Part shown: in pieces, positions 535-32,446 of the stretch
How the letters are laid out: each line of letters starts with the position of its first letter
How positions within the stretch are numbered: the first letter of the stretch is position 1
DNA from: a virus
IMG/VR virus record: IMGVR_UViG_3300010373_001271
Location: 1 to 35,828 of that record
Length of the DNA: 35,828 nucleotides
Direction: 5' to 3' (one strand)
Translations under genes and position numbers: made by a program
Notes under the pieces: model-generated
The model's database searches: none
Told to the model about the DNA's origin: nothing
What the model saw: the letters and a program-made list of their open reading frames with translations, nothing else

Positions 535-2394
535 ATGACAGAGAAACCCTCCAGCGCCAGTTGGCTATTCACCGCGTGGTTGGGGCTGATCCCCCAACCG
601 CCGGAGCCATCGGTCGTCGATTGGGCAGCCACAAACGTCTTCATTCCCGGCTCCGCACGCTCAGAACGCTATGAGCCGGACGTGTCGCCACAGATTAAAG
701 AGCCTGTCGAGCAGGCCGGGCGCTCGCTGGCCCGAAGTGTCACCTTGATTAAGCCAACTCAGAGCGCCGGAAGTCTCGCCGGTGAGATCGTTTTGGATTA
801 TTGGCTGTCGCACTGGAACGGCGGTGACGTTTGCTTTTACATGCAGAACGATCTTGCCGCACGGGACCGCTGGTCGCGACGGTTGGAACGGAGAATTAAA
901 GCGTGTGAACCTGTCATGCGCCGTACGTCGGCTGACCGGTTCAAGTTTGTAAACTGCGAAATCAACTTCCCTCATTTGAATCTTGTCGTACAAGGGGCAC
1001 GAAGCGACCGCAATGTCGCCAGTGACTCTTTCAGGGGAATCCTCCTCGAAGAAGTACACGATGCTCAGGGTGGCTGGACTCCAGGCCGCGTGGATCAGTG
1101 CTTCGGGCGTCAGACCGCGTACTGGGACGCCGTGGCGATGATCATTTCCAACGCTTCCTTTAGCGGAGACCAGCTCCATCAGCTTTGGAAATCCGGCACG
1201 ATGCAGTACTGGGAAGTGCCTTGCCCAATTTGTAAACAATTTCATCGAATGCACACCAAGCGTCACGATGATGGCAGTGGCTTGAACTATGATCACAACG
1301 GCTGCCTCATGCCGAATGGCGATCTCGATTACCAGAAAGTTGTCGCTCGTGGCATCTACTACCAGTTCGAGTGCGGCCATCGTGTGAACGACAACGCGGA
1401 GGAGCGCCGGGCGCTGTCCATGTCCGGCAGATATTCGGACCCGACGAACCCTGGAGCAGCTCTCACGGATAGGTCTTACACGTACCAAAGCGTGGCTGTG
1501 GACTATCGAAAATGGATCGACATTCTAAAACGCAAGCACCGCTCACGTATGGCCCAGAAGGTGGGCGACTTCAAAAGCTGGCTTGATTATCTGCGCGAGG
1601 AAGAATGCCAATTTGTTGACGAGGGCCGAGACCGACCTCCGATTGAGCGTGTCACCATCATCAGTAGCACAAAGCGAAAAAGCCGCGAAGGACTTCCGAA
1701 CCGTGATTTCCGTTTCGCGTACGCCGACTGGCAGCGCGGTCGTGATGGCCAGCCACCGCACTTCTGGGTTTTCATCCAAGATTTTTTGATGAGTGGTGAC
1801 GCGCTGATTGTTTACGAAGGCCGGGTGGACACCGAAGGTGAACTCGTGGCGGTCCTGAATGACCACGGCGTGAAGCCTGTCTGCGTCACGGTCGATTCCA
1901 GTTGGGACACCACGAATATCTACAATCTCTGTTTACGTCGTGGATTCAACGCGGCCAAAGCCGACGACAAAATGTACTGGAAACACGAGGACGGTACGGA
2001 GCGATTTTACGCGGAGCCACGCCCGTTGTGTATGATCGCGAATGCTCCGGTTTCACAGCCAGATGATCCGTCTGCGGAGCCGGATTTCTTCCTGTATTCA
2101 AAGTACGTGACGATGGAACGCCTGATTTATCTCCGGCAATCCAAGGAAGTGAAATACGAAATCCCCGCCGACGTGTCCGAAGATTTCGTCAACCAGTTTG
2201 ATTCCTGGTCTGTGGAAGTCATCCGCCAGCGCGACGGCCAGTCAAAAATGAAATGGATGCAGCAGCGGGATGACGATCACCTGTTTCAGTGCGCTGCTGG
2301 AATCCTGCTGATGGCCGATTTAGCGGGCGTATTTACAGGTGTTGGCGTGTCCCTTCCTCAAAACGAATCTCAGCCGGAGGCAATCGAAGTATGA
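535..2394 (+). CDS. Phage terminase large subunit, GpA family
   Basis: ATP-driven DNA packaging motor and nuclease that cuts concatemeric phage DNA and docks on the portal. The 619-residue length is typical of lambda GpA-type terminases. A Walker A-like segment (TLIKPTQSAGSLAGE, residues about 70-84) is followed by a Walker B-like GILLEEVHD near 168-176. A CPICKQFHRMH segment (about 230) and a later FECGH (about 279) form the zinc-finger insertion typical of the GpA family. The C-terminal nuclease domain contains VTVDSSWDTTNIYNLC. An upstream in-frame ATG at 457 would overlap the previous gene by 77 bases. ATG 535, one base after that gene's stop, is preferred. The portal and capsid genes follow. 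Confidence 0.93.
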   Translation: MTEKPSSASWLFTAWLGLIPQPPEPSVVDWAATNVFIPGSARSERYEPDVSPQIKEPVEQAGRSLARSVTLIKPTQSAGSLAGEIVLDYWLSHWNGGDVCFYMQNDLAARDRWSRRLERRIKACEPVMRRTSADRFKFVNCEINFPHLNLVVQGARSDRNVASDSFRGILLEEVHDAQGGWTPGRVDQCFGRQTAYWDAVAMIISNASFSGDQLHQLWKSGTMQYWEVPCPICKQFHRMHTKRHDDGSGLNYDHNGCLMPNGDLDYQKVVARGIYYQFECGHRVNDNAEERRALSMSGRYSDPTNPGAALTDRSYTYQSVAVDYRKWIDILKRKHRSRMAQKVGDFKSWLDYLREEECQFVDEGRDRPPIERVTIISSTKRKSREGLPNRDFRFAYADWQRGRDGQPPHFWVFIQDFLMSGDALIVYEGRVDTEGELVAVLNDHGVKPVCVTVDSSWDTTNIYNLCLRRGFNAAKADDKMYWKHEDGTERFYAEPRPLCMIANAPVSQPDDPSAEPDFFLYSKYVTMERLIYLRQSKEVKYEIPADVSEDFVNQFDSWSVEVIRQRDGQSKMKWMQQRDDDHLFQCAAGILLMADLAGVFTGVGVSLPQNESQPEAIEV

Positions 2395-2624
2395 AAATCG
2401 AAAAAGTCGGTGCTGTTCCCAAGGTCGAAAAAGTCCAAGCGGCCCCGCCGTGGTGGCTTGGCAAACGAGTCGAATGCCCGCGTTGCTTTATCGTCCTCAC
2501 TTTGGAAATGGGTGACGCACCAGCGCACTACGTCAATTTCGCGCTCCGCTGCCCCACAAAAGGCTGCGGGGCCTACATCGCCGTGCGTCCTGTGTACGAT
2601 CGGAGCGGAGCCATTGCGCAATGA
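2391..2624 (+). CDS. Small zinc-ribbon-like phage protein
   Basis: A 77-residue protein with a CPRC knuckle (residues about 29-32) and a second Cys pair in CPTKGC about 22 residues later. This is a four-cysteine zinc-ribbon arrangement. ATG 2391 overlaps the terminase stop as ATGA and its own stop overlaps the next gene's start the same way. It lies where lambda-type phages keep the small head-joining protein gpW, but gpW has no zinc ribbon, so no role is assigned. It could bind nucleic acid or stabilise the terminase complex; that is inference only. Confidence 0.7.
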   Translation: MKIEKVGAVPKVEKVQAAPPWWLGKRVECPRCFIVLTLEMGDAPAHYVNFALRCPTKGCGAYIAVRPVYDRSGAIAQ

Positions 2625-3316: not shown

Positions 3317-4957
3317 ATGGCCGGACTCATCCAGCACATTTTAGACGGCGTAACTTCGTGGCACCTGTCGCGCAAGGTTAAGGCCGGGACCGTGCTGGAA
3401 CTGCCGGAGGCACGGTATGAATCGGCGTTTCCCTTTTATCGCAAGCGGTCGTACGTGCCTGGCACCATCCAGGATGCCCGGCTCGACGCTTCTCCAGGCG
3501 TACGACGTGAGCTGCTGAAGAATTCGCGATACTGGGAACGCAACTCGGCGTACGCGAACAAGCTCATCGACCTCTTTGAAGCGTTTACCGTTGGCTCGAA
3601 TGGCCTGCATATCGTTCCCAGTTCCAGCGATGAGGATTGGAACGAGGCCGCGTCAGACTGGTGGAGAGATTGGTGCGAGCAGCCCGCCAGGGACAATTTT
3701 CAATCTTTCGGGATGCTCCAGGGCCTCATGGCGCGTGAGTGGTTTGTGGACGGCGAAATTTTTCTCAATCTGACCAGCGATCCTTCCACGGGTCGTCCTG
3801 CCTTCCAGCTCATCGAATCTCATCGCGTTGAAACTCCCGGTGACAAGGGACAGTACGAAGGCAACGGCATCACAGATGGTGTCGAGACGGACCAGGCCGG
3901 TCTGCCTACTGCCTATTACGTTCGCCAGCGAGACACTTCCTCGTTCTACGGCCAATCCAGTTTGATGGCCGGTGCTACGCAGATGTTGAACTACTCGACC
4001 CCTGGCACGTACGCACGAGTCAACGCCAGCAACATCATTCACATTTTTGAGCCGGTTCGAGCCGGTCTCAATCGTGGTCTCCCCATGTTGTATGCCGTCG
4101 AGCGCGATCTGCACGATCTGGATGACCTCCAGGACCTTGAAATGCAGAAAGCGAAGGAAAACGCGCGTACTGCAAAGGTCGTCAAAAGCAAAGCCGGTGA
4201 AGCTCCAAGCTCCGCCAATCTGTACCGGCAGAAGTATTCCACGCAAACCCAGGACGCGGCAGGCAACTCAGTTACGAAAAACATGCCGCAGTTCTATGAG
4301 ATTACGCAGGGCGGTGACGTGATTTACATGCAGCCGGGCGAGGACATGAGCGAGTTTCGCTCTGACCAGCCCAGTGCGGCCACGCAGGACTACTGGAACA
4401 CGTTGATTGGAAAAGTCTGTATCGGCGTCGGCATTCCCCGCGTGTTGGTCGTTCCTTATTCGATCCAAGGCACGGTTCTTCGCGCTGACATTGAAGTGGC
4501 TGCCGCCTATTTCCGCACTCGTTCCGCCGTGGTCGCTCACTCCATGCACCAGCTTTACAAGTTCGCCATGGGTTGGGCCGTCGAGCACGACCGCACTCTC
4601 AAACGAGCCACGCCGAAGGACTGGGACAATGTTGTCGTGCGTCCACCGCGTTCCGTCAACGTGGACGTGGGCAGAAATTCTTCGGCGCTCATCAATGAAA
4701 TGAACGCGGGCATTCGCAGCCTGGCTCAGGTGTGCAGTGAGCTTGGTGTCGATTGGCGGGAAGTCCTTCGCCAGCGTGCCATCGAATGGGCTTACGCACA
4801 GAAGATCGCAGACAAAACGGGCGTTCCTATCGAGCGGATTATGGAACTGCCGAAACCTGCTACGCCTCCGTCTGCTCCGCCCGATGGTTCTGACCCTGAC
4901 GCTGTAGTTATTCCCAAAGTAAACGGCAATGGCCATCACCGCCTGCAACTCGCTTGA
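3317..4957 (+). CDS. Phage portal protein, lambda gpB-like family
   Basis: The dodecameric ring through which DNA enters and leaves the capsid. Its 546 residues are typical for the family. Supporting segments are the N-terminal NSAYANKLIDLFEAFTVGSN helix and loop, MAREWFVDGEIFLNL, IESHRVETPG, and the stem region IIHIFEPVRAGLNRGLPMLY followed by a helix-rich charged stretch. The C-terminus ends in a Pro-rich tail. It sits directly between the packaging genes and the protease-capsid fusion, four bases before the latter. No Shine-Dalgarno is present at the start (TTTTAACTATGG), so translation is probably coupled to the upstream gene. Confidence 0.92.
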   Translation: MAGLIQHILDGVTSWHLSRKVKAGTVLELPEARYESAFPFYRKRSYVPGTIQDARLDASPGVRRELLKNSRYWERNSAYANKLIDLFEAFTVGSNGLHIVPSSSDEDWNEAASDWWRDWCEQPARDNFQSFGMLQGLMAREWFVDGEIFLNLTSDPSTGRPAFQLIESHRVETPGDKGQYEGNGITDGVETDQAGLPTAYYVRQRDTSSFYGQSSLMAGATQMLNYSTPGTYARVNASNIIHIFEPVRAGLNRGLPMLYAVERDLHDLDDLQDLEMQKAKENARTAKVVKSKAGEAPSSANLYRQKYSTQTQDAAGNSVTKNMPQFYEITQGGDVIYMQPGEDMSEFRSDQPSAATQDYWNTLIGKVCIGVGIPRVLVVPYSIQGTVLRADIEVAAAYFRTRSAVVAHSMHQLYKFAMGWAVEHDRTLKRATPKDWDNVVVRPPRSVNVDVGRNSSALINEMNAGIRSLAQVCSELGVDWREVLRQRAIEWAYAQKIADKTGVPIERIMELPKPATPPSAPPDGSDPDAVVIPKVNGNGHHRLQLA

Positions 4958-4960
4958 TCT

Positions 4961-7666
4961 ATGAAAAAGTCTTTCTTCCACATCGGCCAAAAAGCCAAAG
5001 CCATAGCGCCAAAATCCCCGAAAGCAAACTGGGCGGATGAGAGATTTGTTTACGCCTGCCAGAACCTCATCACGTGTTGCACCGGCGCGTTGCGTGAAGG
5101 TGCCGACGCCATTGGCAACGAAGTCTCCACCGCCTGCTCTCAGGCCATCGTGTGCGCCAACGTCGCGATCTCCTGTTTCACCTATTACGACGAGGCCAGC
5201 TTGGCTGAGCGTATCAGCGCGTGCAGTGAACTCGCTGCGTGTTGCGAACTCTTGGAAGGCGCACTGGCTGAAGCGGATTTCGATGGCGCGAAATTCTGTT
5301 TGGAAGCTGCGCAGTCGTGCCAGGAGTTGTGCGCGTTGACGGCAGGCATTGAACCGGAGGAAGACGACGGCGCTACCAGCGCCGATGAAACTGCCACCGT
5401 TGCTCCGGCCCAGGCCAAAGCATCCAAAGCCCCCGCGAAAAAGGTTTCTGCCAAACGTCGTAACCCTGACTGGTTGATTGTCGAAGCCGTGGCCGGTGAG
5501 GACGGCACCGAATCGTACGACATGACCATTGATGGCGTCATCGGCGAAAGCCTCGACGACGACAGCCAGGTCGCATCCACAGAATTCAAAAATGCACTCG
5601 CAAAAATCCCCGCAGGTTCCGCCATCAACCTCTACATCAAATCACCGGGAGGAAGCTGCCTCGACGGCTACGCCATCTACAGCGCCCTCCAGGAGCGAAA
5701 AGACGATGTCACGGTCCATGTTATCGCAGCCCTGTCGATTGCTTCCATCATCGCACTCGGAGGCGGTCAGGTCCTCACGTCGCTCGCTTCCCAGTGGATG
5801 ATTCATTCGCCGCTGTCGAGCACGTACGGCAACGAGGACGACCACGCCGACAGCATCAAAATGCTTAAAAGCTTCGGGTCCACCATGGCCGACGTTTATT
5901 CCGCTCATACCGGAATGAGCAAGGACGACTGCTTGGCCATGATGAAAGATGAAACGTGGCTCACCGGCAAAGAGGCGGTCGAGATGGGTTTTGCCGCTGC
6001 CCTGGACCAGGATGCCGACGAGGAGGAAGTGTCCGCTACCTGCGCAAAGATGGTTGCTGCCTGTGAGCAGAACCTCGAACCGCGCTACGCAGTCGCTGCG
6101 TACTACAAACCCACGAAATCAATTTCCGCTCGCGCTGATGCTGGCGGTAAAACCAACGCTGGCTCCGCCGCCAGCACAACCAAAACTGAGAAAGAAAGTA
6201 TTATGGAAAAGCAAACAACTCCCGTGGCGGCGGCTCCCACCGCCAGCCCAACCCTTGAGCAACGCTTCGCCGAGGAGCGCAAAATGCGGATCACCGCTGA
6301 AGTGAATCGCCGCGCTGAGGGCAAAGTCACCAACTCCAATCTGGACTGGTGGATTGGCCAGGCGCTGGCCACGACCACCGCTGAGTCGGAGCAAGCGATT
6401 TACAAGCAGCTCGACGACATGCCGAAAGCTGCGGCACCCGGTGGTGCAGCCCTTCGGCCTGACAAGCCGGAAGCTGAATCATCCAGTGCGCCCGTGTTTG
6501 AAGTCCCGGTTGCACACGGTGCCCTGCCTCGCGCCAGCAAACGCCTTCCGTGGATGGAAGACGTGCGCAACCTGAAAAGCCGCGCAGCTCGTATCGAAGC
6601 GACCAAAAAGGATTGGGGTCAGAAGCTCGAATACTGCCTCCAGTTGGACGCCCGCGAAAACAAGGGCCAGTTGCCCGTGGCGGCAAACACGTACAGCGCC
6701 ACGCTGATCACGGATTTCCTCGTGGATCAGGCCGTGACGATTCTCGTGGCTCGCTTCGCCGCGCTCAGTTCGTTCGCCATCGAATTCGGGCCTGACCGGA
6801 TTAAGGAATACGCGACTGCGCAATGCAAATTCGTCACGTCGGCGGGGACCACACAGCGGGGAACAAAGTCGTCTCCGATCACGAATTTCGAGCAGGGCGA
6901 CGGAACCGTGGTCCCAATCACGGTGCCAATGACGCACTATGTCAAATCGTTCAATGTCTCACAGGAGGATATGCTCAGCGGCCTGCGCATCGAGAATTTG
7001 ATGCAGCTCAACCTGCTCCAGTTCACGAAGGACGTGACGCTCGACGCGCTCCAGCCCCTGGCAGCGGGACCTTCCAGCCAGCAAATTCCGGGTCCGCTGA
7101 ATAGCTCCGGCAACGTCACGAGCTTCAGTGCCGGAACGATTCACATCAACGCCGGAACATTCGGGTGGAACGCTGGTCAAACGGACGGTCACGACCTGGC
7201 ATCGCTCTGGGCGTACCTCAAAAACAGCCCGGAGAAAAATCTTATCCTGGACGGCAATCTCTATGGCCGTCTGACCAACTCGCCTGGATTCTTCCAGCCC
7301 GCGCTGGAGGACGAGAGCGGCGGTGGCGGTGACTCTGTGAAAACATTCGGGTGGGATCGTATTGAGGAAAACACGGTCTGGCCTGGGGTCACGGACGGCG
7401 GCGGCAACGCAGTCGGCGGTCTGGCTTGCAATCGTCAGGCCATCATCGGCGTCACCGGACTGCCTATGGTTCCGCCCAACATTCCGGGCGGGACGCTCAC
7501 AGAAACTGTGGTCACGCTGCCAAATGGTCTGTCGGTCAGCATGTTCACCTGGTTCTCCCTCCAGGCCCGCAAATTCTGGAACTCGTTTGAACTCATGGGC
7601 GGCTTTGCTGGCGGCGACGCCAGCGCGGGTGCCGTGATCTTCAACGGCAAGGGTTCAGTTAGCTAA
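4961..7666 (+). CDS. Cys-rich helical domain + ClpP-type prohead protease + major capsid protein fusion
   Basis: A 901-residue fusion protein. Residues 30-128 hold 12 Cys in four clusters (33/39/40, 59/65/72, 88/94/95, 113/120/124), each in a predicted amphipathic helix. This resembles the Cys-lined four-helix bundle of copper-storage (Csp/DUF326-like) proteins. Residues about 165-370 are a ClpP-fold (S14) protease: YIKSPGGS oxyanion-region motif, likely nucleophile Ser in ALSIASIIALGGG, and likely catalytic His in MIHSPLS. Residues about 415-500 are a charged, scaffold-like linker. About 545-901 is the major capsid part (TYSATLITDFLVDQAVTILV...). In lambda-like phages gpC matures the prohead and a nested product is the scaffold. 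Here the protease presumably cuts itself from the capsid part. An internal ATG at 6203 could give the capsid part alone. Confidence 0.88.
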   Translation: MKKSFFHIGQKAKAIAPKSPKANWADERFVYACQNLITCCTGALREGADAIGNEVSTACSQAIVCANVAISCFTYYDEASLAERISACSELAACCELLEGALAEADFDGAKFCLEAAQSCQELCALTAGIEPEEDDGATSADETATVAPAQAKASKAPAKKVSAKRRNPDWLIVEAVAGEDGTESYDMTIDGVIGESLDDDSQVASTEFKNALAKIPAGSAINLYIKSPGGSCLDGYAIYSALQERKDDVTVHVIAALSIASIIALGGGQVLTSLASQWMIHSPLSSTYGNEDDHADSIKMLKSFGSTMADVYSAHTGMSKDDCLAMMKDETWLTGKEAVEMGFAAALDQDADEEEVSATCAKMVAACEQNLEPRYAVAAYYKPTKSISARADAGGKTNAGSAASTTKTEKESIMEKQTTPVAAAPTASPTLEQRFAEERKMRITAEVNRRAEGKVTNSNLDWWIGQALATTTAESEQAIYKQLDDMPKAAAPGGAALRPDKPEAESSSAPVFEVPVAHGALPRASKRLPWMEDVRNLKSRAARIEATKKDWGQKLEYCLQLDARENKGQLPVAANTYSATLITDFLVDQAVTILVARFAALSSFAIEFGPDRIKEYATAQCKFVTSAGTTQRGTKSSPITNFEQGDGTVVPITVPMTHYVKSFNVSQEDMLSGLRIENLMQLNLLQFTKDVTLDALQPLAAGPSSQQIPGPLNSSGNVTSFSAGTIHINAGTFGWNAGQTDGHDLASLWAYLKNSPEKNLILDGNLYGRLTNSPGFFQPALEDESGGGGDSVKTFGWDRIEENTVWPGVTDGGGNAVGGLACNRQAIIGVTGLPMVPPNIPGGTLTETVVTLPNGLSVSMFTWFSLQARKFWNSFELMGGFAGGDASAGAVIFNGKGSVS
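6203..7666 (+). CDS. Possible nested in-frame product: linker plus major capsid protein
   Basis: Inside the fusion gene an in-frame ATG at 6203 is preceded by GAGAAAGAAAGTATT, a purine-rich stretch that could act as a ribosome binding site. Most genes in this cluster lack one. Initiation here would yield 487 residues starting MEKQTTPVAAAP, carrying the charged linker and the capsid domain but no protease. This copies the logic of lambda C/Nu3, where an in-frame internal start makes the scaffold. It also would allow capsid subunits to be made in excess over protease. This is an inference from position and sequence only; the fusion may instead be processed purely by proteolysis. Confidence 0.35.
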   Translation: MEKQTTPVAAAPTASPTLEQRFAEERKMRITAEVNRRAEGKVTNSNLDWWIGQALATTTAESEQAIYKQLDDMPKAAAPGGAALRPDKPEAESSSAPVFEVPVAHGALPRASKRLPWMEDVRNLKSRAARIEATKKDWGQKLEYCLQLDARENKGQLPVAANTYSATLITDFLVDQAVTILVARFAALSSFAIEFGPDRIKEYATAQCKFVTSAGTTQRGTKSSPITNFEQGDGTVVPITVPMTHYVKSFNVSQEDMLSGLRIENLMQLNLLQFTKDVTLDALQPLAAGPSSQQIPGPLNSSGNVTSFSAGTIHINAGTFGWNAGQTDGHDLASLWAYLKNSPEKNLILDGNLYGRLTNSPGFFQPALEDESGGGGDSVKTFGWDRIEENTVWPGVTDGGGNAVGGLACNRQAIIGVTGLPMVPPNIPGGTLTETVVTLPNGLSVSMFTWFSLQARKFWNSFELMGGFAGGDASAGAVIFNGKGSVS

Positions 7667-16319: not shown

Positions 16320-16877
16320 ATGGCCGCAACTCCACCAGTCATTCAGCCGGGTAAGAAGCTGGACTATACCAGCCGTCCTTTCCGTGGTGGTAAGCGCGTC
16401 AATTTTCTCATCGCACTGTTCAACGCGATGAATAATCTGCGCGTGAAGGTCGTTTCGACCGTGGGCACCACCGGCTCCAGCCCCAGTGCGCTGAACAACA
16501 TCACGCCTGCGTTCAGCTTCGACAGCACTGGTAACGCAGTTCTGACCATTCCGGTTACCACGCAGGCCAGCCAGCAGGGCTGGTTTTGGGTGAGTGGCAG
16601 CCGCAATTACAACCCGGCCAACTCGTACATGGATCAGCAGCTTGTTTACGTCCAGCCGACGAGCGCCGCAGCTACAACCGGAATTCTGAACCGGGCAACG
16701 CTTTCCAACGTGAAGTCTGTGGCAGGAATCTGGGTCTGCCTCCAGGCAACGGCTCCAACCGTGATCTCTGGTACTACCTATTACGACGTTCCGCAGCTCC
16801 CTATGCCGGTTCCTGGTGACATGGACAGCGGGAGCAATTTCTGGGCGCTGGTTAGTCAGGACCCGCTTTGCGTTTAG
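16320..16877 (+). CDS. Hypothetical tail-region protein
   Basis: A 185-residue protein starting two bases after the previous stop. It has a basic N-terminal third (SRPFRGGKRVNFLIALFNAM) and a Ser/Thr/Ala-rich, strand-rich remainder. The latter includes a WVSGSRNYNPANSYMDQQLV stretch of the type found in phage surface or fibre-related proteins. No family is recognised. Its stop overlaps by four bases the 3' end of the minus-strand HNH gene. Confidence 0.6.
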   Translation: MAATPPVIQPGKKLDYTSRPFRGGKRVNFLIALFNAMNNLRVKVVSTVGTTGSSPSALNNITPAFSFDSTGNAVLTIPVTTQASQQGWFWVSGSRNYNPANSYMDQQLVYVQPTSAAATTGILNRATLSNVKSVAGIWVCLQATAPTVISGTTYYDVPQLPMPVPGDMDSGSNFWALVSQDPLCV

Positions 16878-17341
16878 CTATGAGTCCAAGCCTTTCCACG
16901 TCGGATGTCCGATATTGTGCTCTGATCGACGCCGTAAATTTCAGCAATTATCTGCTGAGTCATGCCGGTGATCGAACGTATCGTCTTCACCTGATCCTCC
17001 GTAAGCTTGTGGGAAAACCGACGTTTCTGGTCTCGGTCCCTGTTATTATCGCTTTTGGTGCCAAGGAAAAGATGCGCCGGATTGCAGCAACGCCGGTTAT
17101 CTCCGCGAGGGCAGTCGTGAAGTACGCACAATCCTTTTGGTATTGGGCCACAGTGGATAAGCCAGGAAACTCGGTGAGCCATAACGTGAGGCCCGCCTCC
17201 TGTAAGACGGATGGAGCCGTAACCACCGCGTGTACTCGCAGTCCAAAGCCAGCACGATTCGGTAATTTTTATCTTCGAGAAGAATCTTCTAAGCAGTCCG
17301 GCAGTAATTTCAATTTCCAGTTCTTTAAGCATGTTGGTCAT
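16874..17341 (-). CDS. Free-standing HNH homing-type endonuclease
   Basis: A 155-residue protein on the opposite strand to the phage late genes. The N-terminal part is an HNH core: ESCWLWTAS, GGYGSIRL, a HRVSW segment (first catalytic His region), LCVLHDCPRGDNRRCCNPAHLFLG with the Cys pairs and NPxHL motif, and DNNRDR. A C-terminal helix-turn-helix follows (LTEDQVKTIRSITGMTQQII ... DQSTISDIRRGKAW), giving DNA specificity. Both parts are typical of phage homing endonucleases. It splits the late operon between two + strand genes. ATG 17341 is used; ATG four codons later is possible. Confidence 0.88.
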   Translation of the reverse strand: MTNMLKELEIEITAGLLRRFFSKIKITESCWLWTASTRGGYGSIRLTGGGPHVMAHRVSWLIHCGPIPKGLCVLHDCPRGDNRRCCNPAHLFLGTKSDNNRDRDQKRRFSHKLTEDQVKTIRSITGMTQQIIAEIYGVDQSTISDIRRGKAWTHS

Positions 17342-21490: not shown

Positions 21491-21507
21491 TTTCAAAAGG
21501 CAGTCTT

Positions 21508-21611
21508 GAGCAGGTGTCACCCAGGAAAGAACGGAAAAGTCGTGCGGCTGTGCGCAAAGGCACGTCAGATGGAATCAGCGGTATCCTTACGTTAGTCGTA
21601 ATGGTCATAAA
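21508..21611 (+). pseudogene. Decayed second copy of the CGC-motif gene end
   Basis: Plus-strand codons from 21537 read KSCGCAQRHVRWNQRYPYVS and stop at TGA 21609-21611, matching KSCGCARRHREWNSKYPYA in the gene ending at 20961. An in-frame TGA at 21507 closes the frame upstream and no start codon exists. Another frame upstream reads FQKAVLSRCHPGKN, echoing FQKWYLRMFGKS in the intact gene. The DNA around it also has a roughly 25-base near-repeat at 21450 and 21508 (GGAAAGAAC cores). It is best read as a frameshifted remnant of a duplication. Confidence 0.5.
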
Positions 21612-21774
21612 TGACTTCTCCTTGGAGGATGTCGCCTGTGTAATAATCGCGCCATAGACCCTGAGCGTCCCTGTATGCGAATCGGTGTTTTCCTAAATTT
21701 TCCACGAAGACACCTTTTCCAACAGGCGGCAAATGCTTGGACGATTCTTGTTCACCATTTTTCCCAGATTCCAT
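21592..21774 (-). CDS. Small hypothetical protein, minus strand
   Basis: A 60-residue soluble protein with a polar N-terminus and a compact C-terminal part, HRFAYRDAQGLWRDYYTGDI followed by LQGEVIYDHYD. The WRDYYTG-like segment gives it the look of a small folded domain rather than chance translation. A good promoter candidate lies just upstream on the same strand. It marks the right edge of the phage-like region. Function unknown. Confidence 0.5.
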   Translation of the reverse strand: MESGKNGEQESSKHLPPVGKGVFVENLGKHRFAYRDAQGLWRDYYTGDILQGEVIYDHYD

Positions 21775-21783
21775 AGGTTTACA

Positions 21784-21813
21784 ACTATCCTTTGCGCCCT
21801 ACTGTTCTGTCAA
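21784..21813 (-). promoter_or_regulatory. Promoter candidate for the 60-residue minus-strand gene
   Basis: On the minus strand a perfect TTGACA (21808-21813) is followed after 18 bases by GATAGT (21784-21789; four of six consensus positions). The start codon at 21774 lies nine bases beyond the -10, so the message would have almost no leader. Confidence 0.4.
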
Positions 21814-21941
21814 AAGATTTAATGTATAGACATCGCCATCGCAATACGCAGCAATGGGGGTGACACCCTCCTAGTCGCAGTTCTCCACGATAAATCAGCT
21901 TGCCGGTCTGGCTTTTCTAGTTTTTGTCCGTATGTTTCACT

Positions 21942-22166
21942 ATGGGAGCATTGATCAAAAACTGTGAGACTCAGGCATTTCTTAAAAGCCTTAACGAGTG
22001 GACGCCAAAAAGAGCGGAGGCAAAGGAATTCAATTCATCGCTTCAGGCGGTGATGTTCTGCCAAAAAAACAAATTGGAAAAGGTGGAAGTGATATTGGTA
22101 ACTGACGGTGCTGAATACGATGTGCCACTTCACCAAAGTCCTGAATGCAAAGACAAGACAGGTTAG
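21942..22166 (+). CDS. Small hypothetical protein, host-type
   Basis: A 74-residue protein from ATG 21942; a TTG at 21924 could add six residues. It reads as one small alpha/beta domain: NCETQAFLKSLNEWTPKRAE, then SSLQAVMFCQKNKLEKVEVI and a final strand with YDVPLHQSPEC. The layout of a helix ending in FC followed by a V-x-V-x-L strand and a YD...P end resembles short proteins I associate with Verrucomicrobia. That is recollection, not a search. It is the first gene to the right of the phage block. Function unknown. Confidence 0.5.
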   Translation: MGALIKNCETQAFLKSLNEWTPKRAEAKEFNSSLQAVMFCQKNKLEKVEVILVTDGAEYDVPLHQSPECKDKTG

Positions 22167-22271
22167 CTTTTCATTCGGCGGGAAGATTCGTGAATTTTTT
22201 CCTTGCTCTTGTCCCAATTACCTCCCAAACCGGGACGCAAGCGATTGCGTCCCTTTTTGTTGCCGCCGCGC

Positions 22272-22335
22272 GGAGCGCCGAGCACCAGCTCGGCAAGATG
22301 GCAGTTCCACGCGCCGATCTGGAGATCGGCGCTCC
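22272..22335. repeat. Composite palindromic (REP-like) element upstream of polA
   Basis: Outer arms GGAGCGCCGA (22272-22281) and TCGGCGCTCC (22326-22335) are exact inverted repeats. Within them lie two hairpins: GCCGAGC-ACCA-GCTCGGC (22277-22294) and GCGCCGATC-TGGA-GATCGGCGC (22311-22332). The second hairpin with its flank recurs in inverted orientation inside polA at 23335-23360 with one base different. Two facing hairpins of this kind are typical of REP/BIME elements mobilised by TnpA-REP transposases, of which a remnant lies at 31717-32216. It could also affect polA transcription. Confidence 0.7.
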
Positions 22336-22402
22336 ATCTCCGCTCCCTCCTGTTCAATTCTGCAGACTCGCGGAACTCACCTCTCCGGGGTACTCTGTGC
22401 CC

Positions 22403-25222
22403 ATGGCGAAACGGCTTTTTCTTCTGGATGGCATGGCGCTCGTGTACCGCGCCCACTTCGCGCTCATCGCGCGGCCGATTTTTACGTCCAAAGGCGTCAA
22501 CACGTCCGCGCTCTACGGCTTCACCCAGACCCTGCTGGAAATCTTGAGCAAACAACAGCCGACGCACCTCGCCGTCGCATTCGACACGGATGCGCCGACG
22601 CCGCGGCACACGGTTTATCCGGAATACAAAGCCACGCGCCAGGCGATGCCGGAGGATTTGTCGGCGGCGTTGCCGCACGTGCGACGGATGCTGGAAGCCT
22701 TCCACGTGCCGATTTTGGAATGCGACGGCTACGAGGCGGATGACATCATTGGCACGCTCGCGCGACGCGCGGAGAAGGAAGGTCTTCAAACTTACATGGT
22801 CACGCCGGATAAGGACTTCGGCCAGCTCGTGGATGAGAACACGTTTCTTTACCGGCCCTCGCGCGCGGGCGACGGCGTGGAAATCATGGGCGTGGAGGAG
22901 ATCAAGCAGCGTTGGGGCATCCAACGGCCGGAACAAGTCATCGATATTCTCGCGTTGATGGGCGATTCGGTGGACAACGTGCCTGGCGTGCCGGGGGTCG
23001 GCGAAAAAACGGCGATGAAGCTCGTGGGTGAATTCGGCACCGTGGAAAATTTGCTCGCGCGCAGCGGCGAACTGAAAGGGAAGCTCAAGGAAAATGTGGA
23101 AAAGAATCGCGAGGTTGCGTTGCTCTCGAAAAAACTGGTGACGCTGTCGTGCGACGCGCCCTGCGATTACAAGTTGGAAGAGCTCAAGCTGCGTCCGCCG
23201 GACGAGCCGAAAGTGAAGGAGCTTTTGATCGAGTTCGAGTTCAATTCGATCGGGAAGCGCTTGTTCGGTGAAGATTTCAAAGCCGGCAGGGGATTTGGCC
23301 CGGCAGCTTCACCGGTCAGCAAAGGCGAAGCGTCGGAGCGCCGATCTCCTGATCGGCGCGAACAAGCAGAAGGTGCAACCTCCGCCGAGCAGCCTCCGAG
23401 CATTCCAAAAGCAGATTTGAAATTCCTGCCAGACGTGCCGCACGATTATCAAATCGTTTCGACCTGCGCGCAGCGCACGGAATTGATGGAAACGCTGCGC
23501 GCATCTAAATCGTTTTCACTCAAAGTGCGGACACACGGCGAGGACGCCAAGGACGCGCGACTGGCGGGATTGGCTTTTTCCCTGAAGGCGCACGCTGGAT
23601 TTTACGTGCCCCTCTCCGATGACGTGAAGGGCGCGGAGGAAATTCTTCAACAGTTCCGCGGCGTGCTGGAGTCGGATACGATCGAGAAGATCGGGCACAA
23701 TCTAAAATTCGACGCCAGCGTGCTGAAGTGGCGCGGCATTTCGCTGCGCGGAAAACTTTTTGACGCAATGGTCGCACACAGCCTGGTTGAGCCCGACATG
23801 CGGCATACGCTGGGCTATTTGTCCGAGGCGTATCTCGGCTACAGCGTGAGCGCGGCCGCCGAGGAAAAAAAAGAGGAGCAACTCAGCCTCGGCGATGTGG
23901 CCTCGGAAAAGATCGCCGAACGCGCCATGGAAGCCGCCGACGTGGCGCTGCAATTGCGCGCAGCGCTGGAGCCATTGCTGAAGGAAAAGGGACAGGAACG
24001 CGTGTTTTATGAAATTGAAGCGCCGTTGATCCCGGTGCTGGTGGACATGGAGTTCGAAGGCATTCGCGTGGAGTCCACCGCATTGTCGGAATTTGCCACA
24101 CAACTTTCGCGCGAGATGGCGCAATTGGAGAAAACAATCTGCCAGGCGGCCGGGCGGGAGTTCAATTTGAATTCGCCGCGGCAATTGGGCGAAGTCTTCT
24201 TCGAGGTGATGAAAATTTGCGAGGCTCCCAAGAAAACCAAGACCGGCCAATACGCGACCGACGAACAAACGCTGCTCGCGCTTGCTCCGGACCACGAAGT
24301 CGTGCGGAAGCTTTTGGATTATCGAGCCGCGTCGAAATTAAAATCCACCTACGCGGATGCCTTGCCAACGGCGATCTGGCCAAAGACGAATCGCGTTCAC
24401 ACTACTTACAACCAGGTGGCGACCGCGACCGGCCGTTTGAATTCTCAAAATCCGAACCTCCAGAACATTCCCATCCGCAGCGAACGCGGCCAGGAAATTC
24501 GCAAGGCCTTCGTGCCGCGTGACGCAAAACATCGCCTGCTCTCCGCGGATTATTCGCAGATTGAATTGCGCATCATCGCGGGACTGAGCCGCGAGGCGGG
24601 GTTGCTGGAGGCATTTCGCACTGGCGCGGACGTGCACACGGCCACGGCGGCGAAAGTTTATGGCGTCGCGGCGGATGGGGTGACGACTGAGATGCGTAGC
24701 AAGGCGAAAATGGTGAATTACGGCATCGCGTATGGCATCTCCGCGTTCGGCCTGGCGCAGCGGTTGGGCATTCCCCGGCGCGAGGCCGCGGAGATCATTG
24801 ACCAATATTTCAAGCAATTTTCCGGCATCCGCAAATACATGGATGACACCATCGAGTTCGCGCGCAAAAATGGCTATGTGGAAACCGTGACCGGCCGCCG
24901 GCGCTACATCCGTGACATCCGGTCATCGAATGCCACCGTGCGCGGCAGCGCGGAGCGCAACGCCATCAACGCCCCCATCCAGGGCACCGCCGCGGACATG
25001 ATCAAGCTGGCGATGATTCACATTCAGGCCGAGTTGCAGAAACGGAAGCTGAAGACGAAGATGCTGTTGCAGGTGCACGACGAACTGGTGTTTGACCTAT
25101 TGAAAACCGAAGAAAGGGAAGTGCTGCCAATCGTGGAAGAGAAAATGAAAGCGGCCATTGCGCTGGAAGTGCCAATTGAAGTGGAAATGGGCGTAGGTGA
25201 AAACTGGCTGGAGGCGCACTAA
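22403..25222 (+). CDS. polA: DNA polymerase I
   Basis: Repair and Okazaki-fragment polymerase, 939 residues. The start at ATG 22403 (MAKRLFLLDGMALVYRAH) is where Pol I proteins begin; the open frame upstream crosses a REP-like element and is ignored. Residues 1-290 are the 5' nuclease (YEADDIIGTLAR, GDSVDNVPGVPGVGEKTA). The 3'-5' exonuclease domain (about 350-540) lacks the catalytic DxE; the strand reads FSLKVRTHG instead of LDTET. It keeps IGHNLKFD, so proofreading is probably lost. The polymerase domain carries motif A (LLSADYSQIELR, about 712-723), motif B (KAKMVNYGIAYG) and motif C (LLQVHDELVFD, about 887). A palindromic repeat adds an Arg/Ser-rich segment at about residues 310-325. Confidence 0.97.
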   Translation: MAKRLFLLDGMALVYRAHFALIARPIFTSKGVNTSALYGFTQTLLEILSKQQPTHLAVAFDTDAPTPRHTVYPEYKATRQAMPEDLSAALPHVRRMLEAFHVPILECDGYEADDIIGTLARRAEKEGLQTYMVTPDKDFGQLVDENTFLYRPSRAGDGVEIMGVEEIKQRWGIQRPEQVIDILALMGDSVDNVPGVPGVGEKTAMKLVGEFGTVENLLARSGELKGKLKENVEKNREVALLSKKLVTLSCDAPCDYKLEELKLRPPDEPKVKELLIEFEFNSIGKRLFGEDFKAGRGFGPAASPVSKGEASERRSPDRREQAEGATSAEQPPSIPKADLKFLPDVPHDYQIVSTCAQRTELMETLRASKSFSLKVRTHGEDAKDARLAGLAFSLKAHAGFYVPLSDDVKGAEEILQQFRGVLESDTIEKIGHNLKFDASVLKWRGISLRGKLFDAMVAHSLVEPDMRHTLGYLSEAYLGYSVSAAAEEKKEEQLSLGDVASEKIAERAMEAADVALQLRAALEPLLKEKGQERVFYEIEAPLIPVLVDMEFEGIRVESTALSEFATQLSREMAQLEKTICQAAGREFNLNSPRQLGEVFFEVMKICEAPKKTKTGQYATDEQTLLALAPDHEVVRKLLDYRAASKLKSTYADALPTAIWPKTNRVHTTYNQVATATGRLNSQNPNLQNIPIRSERGQEIRKAFVPRDAKHRLLSADYSQIELRIIAGLSREAGLLEAFRTGADVHTATAAKVYGVAADGVTTEMRSKAKMVNYGIAYGISAFGLAQRLGIPRREAAEIIDQYFKQFSGIRKYMDDTIEFARKNGYVETVTGRRRYIRDIRSSNATVRGSAERNAINAPIQGTAADMIKLAMIHIQAELQKRKLKTKMLLQVHDELVFDLLKTEEREVLPIVEEKMKAAIALEVPIEVEMGVGENWLEAH
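23335..23360. repeat. REP-like palindrome inside the polA coding sequence
   Basis: A perfect nine-base stem, GCGCCGATC (23338-23346) and GATCGGCGC (23351-23359), around TCCT. Including flanks the 26 bases match the reverse complement of 22310-22335 with one loop difference. It is read in frame as Ser/Glu/Arg/Pro/Asp residues between the 5' nuclease and 3'-5' exonuclease domains, a linker where an insertion is tolerable. The host gene stays open. Confidence 0.7.
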
Positions 25223-25245
25223 CCTGCGAAGTGCTCCGTCGCAAT

Positions 25246-25491
25246 TTATCGAAAGGACTCCATATTCAGTCCGCTACCTTCAATGATACTTTTGAGAGTT
25301 CCAATCGGGATAGGTTTGTTTCCGTGCTTCGCGACAATCACCTGACGACCGTTTTCGTGGCGCCATTTTTGATGACTGCCGGATTGTGCGACCAGTTGGA
25401 AACCGTGCCTGCGCAGAATCTTGACGACCTCTTTTGCGTTGCGGATTGGAATCGCTGACTCACGGCACGGCGAGTTTGACCACTTTCGCAC
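25246..25491 (-). CDS. hicA: HicA-type mRNA interferase toxin
   Basis: Small toxin that cleaves mRNA and is held in check by HicB. The C-terminal 65 residues are typical: IRNAKEVVKILRRHGFQLVA, then QSGSHQKW with the catalytic His in GSH, RQVIVAKHGNKPIPIGTLKS and a final helix. The start is uncertain. In frame there is a GTG at 25491 (81 residues), inside the end of hicB. The GTG that overlaps hicB's stop is out of frame. The frame is also open further up to 25662 and joins the first 18 residues of HicB because hicB is frameshifted, giving a possible 138-residue fusion. Confidence 0.8.
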   Translation of the reverse strand: MRKWSNSPCRESAIPIRNAKEVVKILRRHGFQLVAQSGSHQKWRHENGRQVIVAKHGNKPIPIGTLKSIIEGSGLNMESFR

Positions 25492-25662
25492 CTTTTTTAA
25501 TTTTGACCGGAGTAGGCTCAAACCACAGCCGCAACGCTTCCTTCGCGTTCGCGATTGCTTCCTCCTCCGTATCACCGGCTGACGCGCAGCCAGGCAGTTC
25601 AGGGAAACAGCCGACCAGCGATTGGTTTCGGGATCGTGCTCAACGACTAGCCGAAGTTTCAT
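25460..25662 (-). pseudogene. hicB: HicB antitoxin, frameshifted by one base
   Basis: HicB would neutralise HicA and repress the operon. Starting at ATG 25662 the first 18 residues are MKLRLVVEHDPETNRWSA. The rest of the family pattern continues in another frame as CFPELPGCASAGDTEEEAIA ... EALRLWFEPTPVKIKKG and ends AVP-stop at 25460. The 203-base length is one short of the 204 needed for 67 residues plus stop, so one base is missing near 25609-25610 (between the GGC and TGT codons). Either the antitoxin is dead or the sequence has an error. The toxin gene follows on the same strand. Confidence 0.8.
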
Positions 25663-25717
25663 AATACGGAAATAGTTTTAATTTCTGGCCAAAGCAAGTT
25701 TGTCGAATTGAATTCAA

Positions 25718-26095
25718 TCACAACCGATGCGCCTTCAAAAATTTCCTAAACGCCGAGCACGCAAACAGCATCGGATAATCCCGCCGCATGGTTTCTACGG
25801 AAACCTTGCCCCACAAGAGATTCGCCCAGTGGTTGGGAAATTCCTGGCATTGCTGCGGCTTCACGGCATGGACGAGACACGAGTTGCCCTCCAGGAAAAT
25901 GCACGAGTGGTCGTCGCGCTCTTTAAGCGCAAGCCCGGTCCGGTCGTTGCGAAGACGCGTATGTCGCTCAACGAAATCCTTTTCGCTCAAACCCAGAAAT
26001 GCCGCGAGCTTTCGCGCATCATCACCGACGAGCCGGACCTCACCCGGCCAGCGGCAACAGGCAGCGCATCGTTGGCATTGAAGGTCGAATTCCAT
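25718..26095 (-). CDS. YkgJ-family Cys-cluster (zinc/iron-chelating) protein
   Basis: A 125-residue protein of the YkgJ family, whose conserved Cys cluster is thought to bind zinc or iron; substrate unknown. The hallmark CQRCAACC (C-x2-C-x2-CC) lies at residues about 7-14, followed by C in HSCIFL, C in NSCLVH and C in QQCQEFP. These are the expected later ligands. The start at ATG 26095 (MEFDLQCQRC) puts the cluster at the N-terminus as in the family. A longer open frame to 26278 has no family similarity. No Shine-Dalgarno is visible. It is divergent from the addiction-module gene at 26205. Confidence 0.85.
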   Translation of the reverse strand: MEFDLQCQRCAACCRWPGEVRLVGDDARKLAAFLGLSEKDFVERHTRLRNDRTGLALKERDDHSCIFLEGNSCLVHAVKPQQCQEFPNHWANLLWGKVSVETMRRDYPMLFACSAFRKFLKAHRL

Positions 26096-26168
26096 GTTGA
26101 CGGGATGTGTTTGAGTATAGGCCGATACGGGAACCAAATCAATCGTTCGATTCAGCGTCAAATCCACT

Positions 26169-26197
26169 TTGGCGAGTGATTCCTGCGAAGATAATAT
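26169..26197 (+). promoter_or_regulatory. Promoter candidate for the addiction-module gene
   Basis: TTGGCG (26169-26174) and TAATAT (26192-26197) are 17 bases apart. The ATG at 26205 is only seven bases past the -10, so the transcript would begin at or next to the start codon. Confidence 0.35.
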
Positions 26198-26204
26198 TTT
26201 CTCT

Positions 26205-26408
26205 ATGAGCAAGGAGAAAATAATCGAGGCCGTCAGGGCTTTGTCGGAAAAGGAGCGGCTAGAGTTGGCGCGCCGCATTATTCAGAGCATCGAATCTGAA
26301 TCCAGCGAAACCGAGCAGGTTGCTGAAGCGGTACGCGGGATTGAGGATGTTGTCACCGGGAAAGTTGCAGGATTAAGTGAAACGGAATTTCGGAATGCCT
26401 TGAGATGA
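26205..26408 (+). CDS. Putative addiction-module component (antitoxin-like)
   Basis: A 67-residue protein starting MSKEKIIEAVRALSEKERLE followed by LARRIIQSIES. A Leu-Ser-x2-ER-x2-Leu-Ala segment like this is typical of the small 'addiction module component' family, the presumed antitoxin of a RelE/HigB-type pair. No toxin-like gene follows: the next gene, overlapping by ATGA at 26405, is a lipoprotein. The module is therefore an orphan or the partner was lost. ATG 26205 is chosen over an upstream in-frame codon because the family begins here. Confidence 0.75.
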   Translation: MSKEKIIEAVRALSEKERLELARRIIQSIESESSETEQVAEAVRGIEDVVTGKVAGLSETEFRNALR

Positions 26409-26852
26409 GAGTTTTCTTTGCCGTGGTTGCCTTGAGTGCGGTCGGATTTCTTGCGGGATGCGATCGCAAACAGGATTCAATTTGGAAATGGAAGTATTCG
26501 GAAATCAAGAGAGTCGTGTCGCCGGATGCCAAGGTCGACGCGGTGATTGCGGATGGAGATGCTGGAGCCGTCACCCGGACAACGACCTTTATTTTTCTAG
26601 TACCACACGGGGCAAAAGTAGATGAAGAAAATGACGACAATTGCCCGGTCTTCCGGAGCGGACGACGTCAAAAACCTGAACCTTGTGTGGAGCAAGCCTA
26701 AATTCCTGGAAATCCATTTTGATGAGGCGAGAGTAATCCAGTTCCAAAATTACTGGCAGAGCCGCGAGGCGGAGGATTTTCACTATCTTGTGGAAACCAG
26801 ATTATTTCCCGAAAAAGACTCCTCGCTGCCGTTGGAACTGCGAGAATGGTAA
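26405..26852 (+). pseudogene. Lipoprotein gene frameshifted by one base
   Basis: The 5' part (26405 on) encodes a lipoprotein signal (MRVFFAVVALSAVGFLAGCD, lipobox LAGC) and then VSPDAKVDAVIADGDAGAVT and TTFIFLVPHGAKVDEENDD. This is the usual order of a small lipoprotein family that begins with SPDxxxDAV. The expected continuation, ADDVKNLNLVWSKPKFLEIH ... FQNYWQ, is in a different frame and ends at TAA 26852. The total of 448 bases is one more than a multiple of three, so one base seems inserted near 26657. Read through, it would give about 149 residues. A sequencing error is the alternative. Confidence 0.65.
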
Positions 26853-27003
26853 TAGGCACGGCTCATTGCTGGTCCGGCAAAGTTGCGGATAAAGTTTTGG
26901 TGTTGCGGTGCAGATATTCGCTTGGCGAACGGGCCGGGCGCGAATAAATTCGCCTTGTGCGCGCGTGCCACTCAACGCGAACGAGCCTGAGGACTTTTTC
27001 GTT

Positions 27004-29100
27004 ATGAAAGAATATCAGCCCGCGGACATCCGCAACTTCGCCATCGTCGGCCACGCTTCTTCCGGGAAAACCATGCTCAGCGAAGCCATGCTCGCCTGCG
27101 CGGGCGTCATCAATCGCATGGGCAGCATCCCGGCCGGGTCCACGGTTTCCGATTATCACGAAAGCGAAAAGCAGCGGCAAATTTCCGTCTCCGCCACGCT
27201 CATGCACCTCGAATGGCTGGGGAAAAAATTCAACCTTCTCGATTGCCCGGGCTATGCGGATTTTATCAGCGAAGGTTTGGGCGCGCTGCGCGTCGGCGAT
27301 TTTGCGCTCATCGTCGTGAACGCGAATCACGGTGTCAGCATCGGCACCGATGCGGCATGGAAATACGCGACGGAAGATGACATTCCAAAGATGATCGTCA
27401 TCAATGCGTTCGACAAGGAGGACACCGATTTTGAACGCGTGATGACGCAATTACGCGAGCATTTTGGCGCGCGCATTTTTCCAGTCAGCCTGCCGATCAA
27501 TCCCGGGCCGGGTTTCAATCAATTGCTGGACACGATTCGCAGCGAAGTCATTACCTACGCCGGCGATCGCAGCGGAAAATTTACCGAAACGCCCGCCTCG
27601 GGTGAATTGACGGACCGCGTTTCCGAGTTGCACCGGGAGTTGATTGAATACATCGCCGAGGCGGACGATTCACTAATGGAAAAGTGGATGGACAAGGGCA
27701 CGCTGACGGAGGAGGAATTGCGCGCGGGCTTGCACGCGGCGGTGCAGAAACAATCCTTCGTGCCGGTGTTTTGTGCGTCGGCGGAAAACAACATCGGCGT
27801 GGCCCGCATGATGGATTTCATTGCCAAGTACGGCTCGTCGCCGGTGGATCGCGAGAAAGTGAAGGCGCTGGATGCCAACGGCAAGGACGTGGACGTGGCG
27901 CTCACGGATCCCGACGCGGTTTGTTATGTGTTCAAAACCATGAGCGAAGCGCAGTTCGGGGAACTATCGTTTTTTCGCATTTATTCCGGGCACGTGAAAT
28001 TCGGCTCGGAATTATACAATACCGACCGGCGCACGTCGGAAAAAATCGGGCAGATTTATGTCTTGAACGGCAAAAATCGCGAGACGGTTCAATCGCTCGG
28101 GCCGGGGGACATCGGCGCGGTGGTGAAATTGAAGGACACGCACACGGGCAACACGCTCTGCAGCGCGAAACGGCCGGTATCGCTGCCGAAGGTCGTCTAT
28201 CCAAAGCCGAACATTCACGCGGCGTTGAAGAGCACGAACAAAGGCGAAGAGGATAAGGTTGCCTCCGGCCTGGCGGCGTTGCATCACGAGGACCCGACGT
28301 TTTTGCATCACGTGGATTCGGAATTGCACCAGACCGTTTTGTCCGCGCAAGGCGAGTTGCACCTGGAAGTCATCGCGGAACGTTTGCGGCGGCGTTACGG
28401 CGTCCACGTGGAATTGCACGAACCGCGCGTGCGTTATCGCGAGACGATCAAGGGCCGCGGCGAATCGAAATATCGGCACAAGAAACAAACCGGCGGCGCG
28501 GGGCAATTCGCGGAAGTGTGGATGCGCATCGAACCGACAGCGCGCGACACCGGCGTGGAGTTCACACAATCATTGGTCGGTCAGAACGTGGATCGCGTGT
28601 TCGTGCCATCGGTGGAGAAGGGCGTGAACAAGGCGTGCGAAGAGGGGATCGTGGCCGGCTACCGCGTCGTCGATTTGAAGATCGATTTTTACGACGGCAA
28701 AATGCACCCCGTGGATTCCAAGGACATCGCCTTTCAAATCGCGGGATATTTTGCCTTCAAAGAAGCGTTTGCCGCCGCGCGGCCCTGTTTGCTGGAGCCG
28801 ATTTACACGGTCGAAATCCGCGTGCCGGAGGATTTCATGGGCAAAGTCATGGGCGACCTCTCGAGCCGGCGCGGAAAAATTCAAGGGATGGACACCGATG
28901 GCGCCTTCCAGGTCATCCGCGCCCACGTGCCCGCCAAGGAACTGTATCGCTATTCCAGCACGCTGCGGTCCTTGACCGGCGGCCGCGGCGTGCACACCGA
29001 GGAATTCAGCCATTACGAAGAGATGCCGCGCGAGGCCGAGCAACGGGTGGTGGAGGACAGCAAAAAGCACCGGCAACAGTTACAGGCGGAGGTGCACTGA
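27004..29100 (+). CDS. Elongation factor G-like translational GTPase (EF-G2 type)
   Basis: A 698-residue full-length EF-G paralogue. ATG 27004 is chosen because EF-G homology starts at once; the open frame upstream is low quality. The P-loop reads GHASSGKT (16-23) instead of the AHIDAGKT of canonical EF-G. The G2 region has RQISVSATL, G3 is DCPGYADF (about 80-87) and G4 is NAFDKED (about 134) instead of NKMD. Domain IV features are present (HKKQTGGAGQFAEVWMRIEP) and the C-terminal domain has EVRVPEDFMGKVMGDLSSRR-like text. The altered motifs are typical of EF-G2 or EF-G-like proteins rather than the main fusA product. Canonical ribosomal neighbours are absent. Exact role is unknown. Confidence 0.92.
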   Translation: MKEYQPADIRNFAIVGHASSGKTMLSEAMLACAGVINRMGSIPAGSTVSDYHESEKQRQISVSATLMHLEWLGKKFNLLDCPGYADFISEGLGALRVGDFALIVVNANHGVSIGTDAAWKYATEDDIPKMIVINAFDKEDTDFERVMTQLREHFGARIFPVSLPINPGPGFNQLLDTIRSEVITYAGDRSGKFTETPASGELTDRVSELHRELIEYIAEADDSLMEKWMDKGTLTEEELRAGLHAAVQKQSFVPVFCASAENNIGVARMMDFIAKYGSSPVDREKVKALDANGKDVDVALTDPDAVCYVFKTMSEAQFGELSFFRIYSGHVKFGSELYNTDRRTSEKIGQIYVLNGKNRETVQSLGPGDIGAVVKLKDTHTGNTLCSAKRPVSLPKVVYPKPNIHAALKSTNKGEEDKVASGLAALHHEDPTFLHHVDSELHQTVLSAQGELHLEVIAERLRRRYGVHVELHEPRVRYRETIKGRGESKYRHKKQTGGAGQFAEVWMRIEPTARDTGVEFTQSLVGQNVDRVFVPSVEKGVNKACEEGIVAGYRVVDLKIDFYDGKMHPVDSKDIAFQIAGYFAFKEAFAAARPCLLEPIYTVEIRVPEDFMGKVMGDLSSRRGKIQGMDTDGAFQVIRAHVPAKELYRYSSTLRSLTGGRGVHTEEFSHYEEMPREAEQRVVEDSKKHRQQLQAEVH

Positions 29101-29121
29101 AGGGAGTTTTCCAATACTTCA

Positions 29122-29156
29122 AAATGCTACATTAGTCATCTCTGACCCCTTTCCCC
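29122..29156 (+). repeat. Dispersed short repeat, copy A
   Basis: Core ACATTAGTCATCTCTGACCC (29129-29148), preceded by AAATGC. Close variants are found at 31687-31721 (minus strand) and 35146-35180 (plus). It fills the short gap between the EF-G-like gene and the minus-strand immunity candidate. Its association with the transposase remnant suggests a REP-type element. Confidence 0.5.
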
Positions 29157-29162
29157 AAGTTG

Positions 29163-29750
29163 CTACTGGCTGACAGCCGACTGTTGAGCTTGCCACTTCT
29201 CGGCGTTCTTCATGGCTCGCCGCAAAACGTCTCGATCCACTTCCCATTTTTCGTCTTGGTCAAGACAGTCTAACCATTTTCGGATTAAAGCCCATTGCTG
29301 CTTCGTGAACAACTTCCATCGCTCCTGCCTCCGTGCACTCACCTGTTTTTGGTCTATATAAGCAAGTGTATCTGAGATTTCAGGGTGTTCCGCCAAAAGC
29401 TTCGCCTCGACATCTTTCACTGACTCTGGCCATTTGCCTATCTCTACATCAGCCAACATATCAATCAGCCAATCTACCAGCAGGCTTGTTTTCTTCGCGT
29501 CAACCTGCGACTGCTTAATGAAGGCGGGGAAGAAGTAATGAAACGCTTGAGGGTTCAGCCAAGATCCGATATCGAAGAATCCCTGCAGAAAGTCGGATCC
29601 AATATCCTCCCAATTTTTGCCCTTTAACTTTTCAGCCTCAATGCGATCATCTTCAAATTCAGAGAGTTCGCCCTCCGTGGTGCGAGCCAAATCCTTTGGA
29701 AATTCGCGTTGAAAAGCTTTGTGAAGCTCTGTATCCGAAATCGTGATCAT
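29163..29750 (-). CDS. Candidate RHS immunity protein (DUF6714-like)
   Basis: A 195-residue, strongly acidic soluble protein (TTEGELSEFEDDRIEAEKL), with an aromatic core (ADFLQGFFDIGSWLN-like, then AFHYFFPAFIKQSQ) and a helical C-terminus ending in KNAEKWQAQQ. ATG 29750 lies 15 bases after the stop of the RHS gene on the same strand. That is the standard place for the immunity protein that blocks the RHS C-terminal toxin. The FHYFFPAFI-type segment resembles a family (DUF6714) I associate with such loci. This is from memory and position, not a search. Confidence 0.6.
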   Translation of the reverse strand: MITISDTELHKAFQREFPKDLARTTEGELSEFEDDRIEAEKLKGKNWEDIGSDFLQGFFDIGSWLNPQAFHYFFPAFIKQSQVDAKKTSLLVDWLIDMLADVEIGKWPESVKDVEAKLLAEHPEISDTLAYIDQKQVSARRQERWKLFTKQQWALIRKWLDCLDQDEKWEVDRDVLRRAMKNAEKWQAQQSAVSQ

Positions 29751-29765
29751 TTGATACCGTTCTAT

Positions 29766-32415: not shown

Positions 32416-32446
32416 TCCCGAATACAGAACCAATTTGGGACGTCTG

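Follow-up and report, generated by a model that had tools for sequence, protein, structure and literature searches.

A Csp-like, cysteine-rich four-helix domain at the N-terminus of a protease-capsid polyprotein in a predicted Limisphaerales prophage

Here we describe a phage head polyprotein in which a predicted four-helix, cysteine-rich domain, closely matching the fold of the Csp copper-storage proteins, precedes a ClpP-like head maturation protease and a presumed major capsid protein. The polyprotein is encoded in the virus record IMGVR_UViG_3300010373_001271, of which positions 1 to 35,828 are the window analyzed here. We favor, with moderate confidence, the reading that the N-terminal domain is a thiol-lined accessory module of the Csp fold, probably binding Cu(I), that is carried into the prohead and freed at the linker that follows it. 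This is a known fold within a new architecture. Within the papers searchable, we found no description of a metal-storage fold in a phage capsid polyprotein, and the literature search over the same papers returned nothing on Csps in phages or on fusions of this kind.

The gene is a single open reading frame that begins at an ATG 3 bases past the stop codon of the adjoining upstream portal gene (Table 1). A terminase search identified one contig, IMGVR_UViG_3300037258_001118 (L005), encoding a protein with the same architecture, P0002, which is 48% identical to the fusion over the whole length, N-terminal domain included. Because a protein this similar and identically organized sits on an independent contig, the fusion is not an assembly artefact; P0002 is also the one further case of the domain fused to a protease.

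Table 1. Features of the fusion gene and its upstream neighbor. Below the whole ORF, the parts of the polyprotein are listed from the N-terminus to the C-terminus.
Feature	Residues	Position	Strand	Basis
Portal protein gene		3317..4957	+	phrog_21, E = 1.5e-60
Whole fusion ORF, without internal stop	901 aa	4961..7666	+	
Csp-like four-helix Cys-rich domain	24-130	5030..5350	+	AF2 model; VIA-align 2; kept in L005
Low-complexity linker, acidic then A/K/P-rich	131-185	5351..5515	+	sequence
ClpP-like head maturation protease domain	186-350	5516..6010	+	NF045542; PF00574; alignment A9
Scaffold-like region (inferred)	351-500	6011..6460	+	flanked by the protease and the capsid part; alignment A9
Presumed HK97-type major capsid region	501-901	6461..7663	+	hhalign against capsid parts of other fusions

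Cellular genes, including those for DNA polymerase I (22.1-25.2 kb), a later EF-G-like protein and, on the minus strand, an Rhs-like protein, occupy approximately positions 21500-35828. The DNA polymerase I and EF-G-like genes are closest to those of Limisphaerales, with up to 77% full-length identity, which is why the window is most likely a prophage with a host flank on the right, and why the virus record includes host DNA. Judging from these flanking genes, the putative host belongs to Limisphaerales (Verrucomicrobiota subdivision 3). None of the window ORFs that were read was recognized as a copper gene. A small ORF past the terminase (2391-2624, plus strand) contains two cysteine pairs (CPRC and CPTKGC) and is zinc-ribbon-like, and an ORF on the opposite strand within the structural gene region (16874-17341, minus strand) has, by eye, the look of an HNH homing endonuclease (HRVSW...VLHDCPRGDNRRCCNPAHLFLGT).

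The N-terminal domain of the fusion (residues 24-130) contains 12 cysteines, at positions 33, 39, 40, 59, 65, 72, 88, 94, 95, 113, 120 and 124, compared to 7 in the other 771 residues (131-901), so that its cysteine content is approximately tenfold that of the remaining protein (Fisher p = 1.5e-7). The helices predicted at residues 27-46, 53-74, 81-103 and 110-127 hold three cysteines each, in agreement with the earlier claim of 12 cysteines in four helical clusters near the N-terminus. The domain contains a single CXXXC motif (C120-C124) and neither histidine nor methionine. On a helical wheel, 18 of 22 cysteines fall within 90 degrees of the hydrophobic face, a result that is unreliable for helix 3, where the moment is near zero, and that weakly supports orientation of the cysteines toward the core.

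AlphaFold2, given two sequences only, modeled residues 27-127 as a confident four-helix bundle (helices mostly at pLDDT of about 88-97; pTM 0.74). In the comparison of this model with the PDB using VIA-align 2, the best 25 entries were all Csp proteins or their relatives (Z 12.9-15.3), with Csp-family alignments spanning 99-115 residues, and the first entry outside the family scored Z 12.0. Although helical bundles may reach Z of about 13 merely as a common arrangement, most of the Csp entries exceed this value, and no other family is represented in the top 25. Thus, the structural comparison with Csp proposed in the preliminary description yielded a cysteine-rich bundle of the expected topology. 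The first 16 Foldseek matches were likewise all Csp proteins, with modest E-values (0.04-0.12), and the best viral match, at E = 1.5e-3, was to an uncultured marine phage protein of 116 residues. The model is closest to BsCsp3 (5FIG, 6WKT), a bundle of the same length and fold, with Z 15.3 and an rmsd of 1.8 A across 100 residues.

Superposition places phage residues 24-129 onto residues 4-108 of BsCsp3, which corresponds to offset 20-21. Without gaps and at offset 21, 8 of the 12 phage cysteines (33, 40, 59, 88, 95, 113, 120 and 124) coincide with BsCsp3 cysteines (12, 19, 38, 67, 74, 92, 99 and 103, respectively), and at offset 20, cysteines 39, 65 and 94 meet three further BsCsp3 cysteines. 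Under a null model with three randomly placed cysteines per helix, such coincidence has p = 0.001 at offsets 20-21 and p = 0.004 over all offsets; when the cysteine pattern of each helix is itself slid along the helix, p = 0.009. All cysteines point into the core in Csp3 structures (PMC5171941), so that, given the shared register, core-facing thiols are a fair inference for the phage domain, and by this analogy we regard such orientation as probable.

At the sequence level, identity of the domain to Csp1 and Csp3 (DUF326, PF03860) is 17%. A Pfam (PF03860/DUF326) and NCBIfam search with the fusion protein produced no Csp match up to E = 10, and hhalign of the domain against Csps gave no significant match; against our own profile of 17 Csp sequences, the phage domain scored above 995 of 1000 shuffled sequences, and its homologue was not separated from the shuffles. 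Since these profile tests do not establish homology to Csps, we denote the domain Csp-like rather than Csp; the predicted fold itself closely matches the Csp four-helix bundle. This lack of significant sequence homology, together with the commonness of four-helix bundles and of chance Z-scores up to 13 among them, is what one would expect of an unrelated cysteine-rich bundle that has converged on the Csp shape and binds Zn, Fe-S, heme or nothing. However, the exclusive presence of Csps among the best 25 structures, the three Z units that separate the best Csp from the first other protein, and the ungapped coincidence of the cysteine register make such convergence very improbable.

As in Csp1 and Csp3, every cysteine of the phage domain lies in a helix, but the domain has 12 cysteines as opposed to 16-19, a lone CXXXC in place of the repeated motifs of classical Csps, and no histidine or methionine at the mouth of the bundle, and, unlike Csps, it is fused to a phage head polyprotein. 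The missing histidine and methionine are not decisive because Csp3s of a subgroup that lacks the classical His motif still bind about 17-18 Cu(I); Csp3s do not require the motif to take up Cu(I) (PMC10155185). We put the chance that the domain binds metal, copper being the likeliest, at about even.

The distribution of the domain was traced through related fusions. A search with the capsid profile identified seven more viral fusions (L145, L146, L148-L152), and a genome of the host order yielded one more protease-capsid fusion (L100). These proteins are 31-38% identical to the one described here over the protease and capsid parts and share the gene order after the portal; in all eight, a short N-terminal tail leads directly into the protease, without a Csp-like domain. 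In a tree of 10 fusions, the clade that unites the two carriers has support of 100/100. Given this grouping and the eight relatives without the domain, it looks like a single N-terminal addition, and the codon-position differences of 0.32/0.35/0.75 between the domains of the carriers show that purifying selection acts on it. The absence of the domain from all eight relatives also makes this a clean case of N-terminal domain gain on a protease-capsid fusion, and makes it unlikely that the domain serves as a scaffold on which this capsid family depends.

Searches for the domain elsewhere covered several collections. The N-domain sequence had no match in PDB sequences or plasmids, nor, as a single-sequence query, in viral contigs, and the one match in phages was judged to be due to chance. 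With a two-row profile of the domain, neither 320 host-order genomes nor 388 genomes of the phylum gave a convincing match; this negative result is informative for close homologues because the same profile detects both carriers. Three weak profile matches (E 0.002-0.004) were dismissed as chance: one lacks the cysteine pattern and contains a stop (L130), one is a short ORF (L131), and one lies inside a 460-residue ORF resembling UDP-glucose dehydrogenase (L132).

Identity between the two carriers is highest in the protease (74%), followed by the domain (54%), the linker (42%) and the capsid region (40%), and the higher conservation of the domain compared to the capsid part favors a function that is being kept. 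P0002 retains 9 of the 12 domain cysteines, including 7 of the 8 that are in register with BsCsp3; C72 is replaced by histidine, and a new cysteine creates C65-x3-C69 in helix 2, a second CXXXC beside the equivalent of C120-C124. Loss of the cysteines in homologues, named previously as evidence that would count against the proposal, is therefore not seen in the one homologue at hand. Retention of the cysteines (9/12) does not significantly exceed that of the other domain residues (48/94; p = 0.10), which is compatible with the possibility that the bundle, although of the Csp fold, has no metal role and serves as a structural or oligomerizing module of the prohead, its cysteines being ordinary core residues; variants of this explanation include an N-terminal tether, a delta-domain-like organizer, and a domain for protease dosage and targeting. 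The fold would suit oligomerization, since four bundles make up a Csp tetramer (PMC10155185), and the smaller number of cysteines than in Csps and the single CXXXC fit as well. The strong cysteine enrichment of the domain and the Csp register of the cysteine positions speak against such a module, as do the eight related fusions that manage without the domain, which shows that assembly in the family does not need it; on balance, we consider a purely structural role rather unlikely.

The remainder of the polyprotein resembles known head proteins to different degrees. The protease scores 137.2 bits against NF045542 (cut-off 120), the profile of head maturation proteases, and matches phrog_94 (E = 3.4e-48) and PF00574 (E = 2.1e-22). 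Three residues are invariant in all 10 fusions in alignment A9, namely S259, H282 and E331; from the alignment and our knowledge of ClpP, we take these to be the ClpP triad, with S259 as the presumed nucleophile, and the active site appears intact. For the capsid part (residues ~501-901), family-profile searches gave no direct family match, and its AF2 model, for which few sequences were available, has pLDDT of 34.5. In hhalign, its profile aligns with the capsid parts from other fusions at E = 1.6e-5 and a probability of 79%; among these, the capsid parts of L101 and L011 match the major head protein families phrog_267 and phrog_283, and that of L104 matches phrog_267. We presume residues 501-901 to be an HK97-type major capsid region because of their place in the fusion and this profile match; thus, of the earlier assignment of protease plus major capsid protein, the protease stands and the capsid identity is presumptive. 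The order of protease, scaffold-like stretch and capsid part is that of NF045540, the ClpP-like prohead protease/MCP fusion, to which the phage protein scores 128.4 bits, far under the cut-off of 475, in a match that ends at residue 496; the N-terminal Csp-like domain is additional to both NF045540 and NF045542.

Taken at face value, these features suggest the following course of events. A single lineage of Limisphaerales phages would have gained a Csp-fold domain once, at the N-terminus of its protease/capsid polyprotein. The core of the domain would most likely hold up to 12 reduced thiols and bind Cu(I), or a different soft metal, at fewer sites than Csp3, which has 17-19. Being built into the polyprotein, the domain would enter the prohead interior in many copies alongside the protease, and location inside the prohead is probable. 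The protease would then cut the flexible linkers, releasing the mature capsid protein and the domain, which might stay as cargo or leave; cleavage at the linker is somewhat less assured than the internal location, and residues 131-185 are a possible processing region.

Because the cysteine-rich domain precedes an intact-looking protease on the same chain, metal occupancy or oxidation of its thiol core could conceivably alter the activity or access of the protease, so that maturation would be gated by metal or redox state, the idea put forward in the preliminary description. The low-complexity linker of ~55 residues between the two domains, the complete lack of such a domain in the other fusions, and the reported slowness of Csp3 thiols to oxidize (PMC5171941) make this gating highly doubtful. 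Returning to the accessory, probably Cu(I)-binding domain that we favor, an extended version, in which hundreds of Csp-like domains form a working copper store in the prohead, taking up Cu(I) from the cytosol of the host as the head assembles, for detoxification, delivery by the virion or timing of maturation, seems improbable. If Cu(I) is bound, the result would be a virus-borne copper store at a very high local concentration within a protein shell, which raises the questions of whether phage heads carry metal and whether head maturation is affected by metal state.

Other Csp-like or metal-binding candidates were encountered along with these proteins. Among DUF326 genes in records labeled as Acinetobacter 'phage', the one inspected (H63; L177, CAKLQH020000032.1) adjoins cueR and a cation P-type ATPase, looks like bacterial DNA and was set aside. 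A stand-alone DUF326/Csp-like protein with many cysteines is encoded in a 634-kb uncultured phage record (L176; LR745206.1, 52550-54765) and is another, distinct instance of a phage with a Csp-like gene. In one of the fusions without the N-terminal domain (L150:3765-6044, plus strand), the protease is followed immediately by an insert rich in Cys and Asp (LADASCACDEDCPEDCDCDCHDEIPKN), which may be a further metal-binding element added within this polyprotein family.
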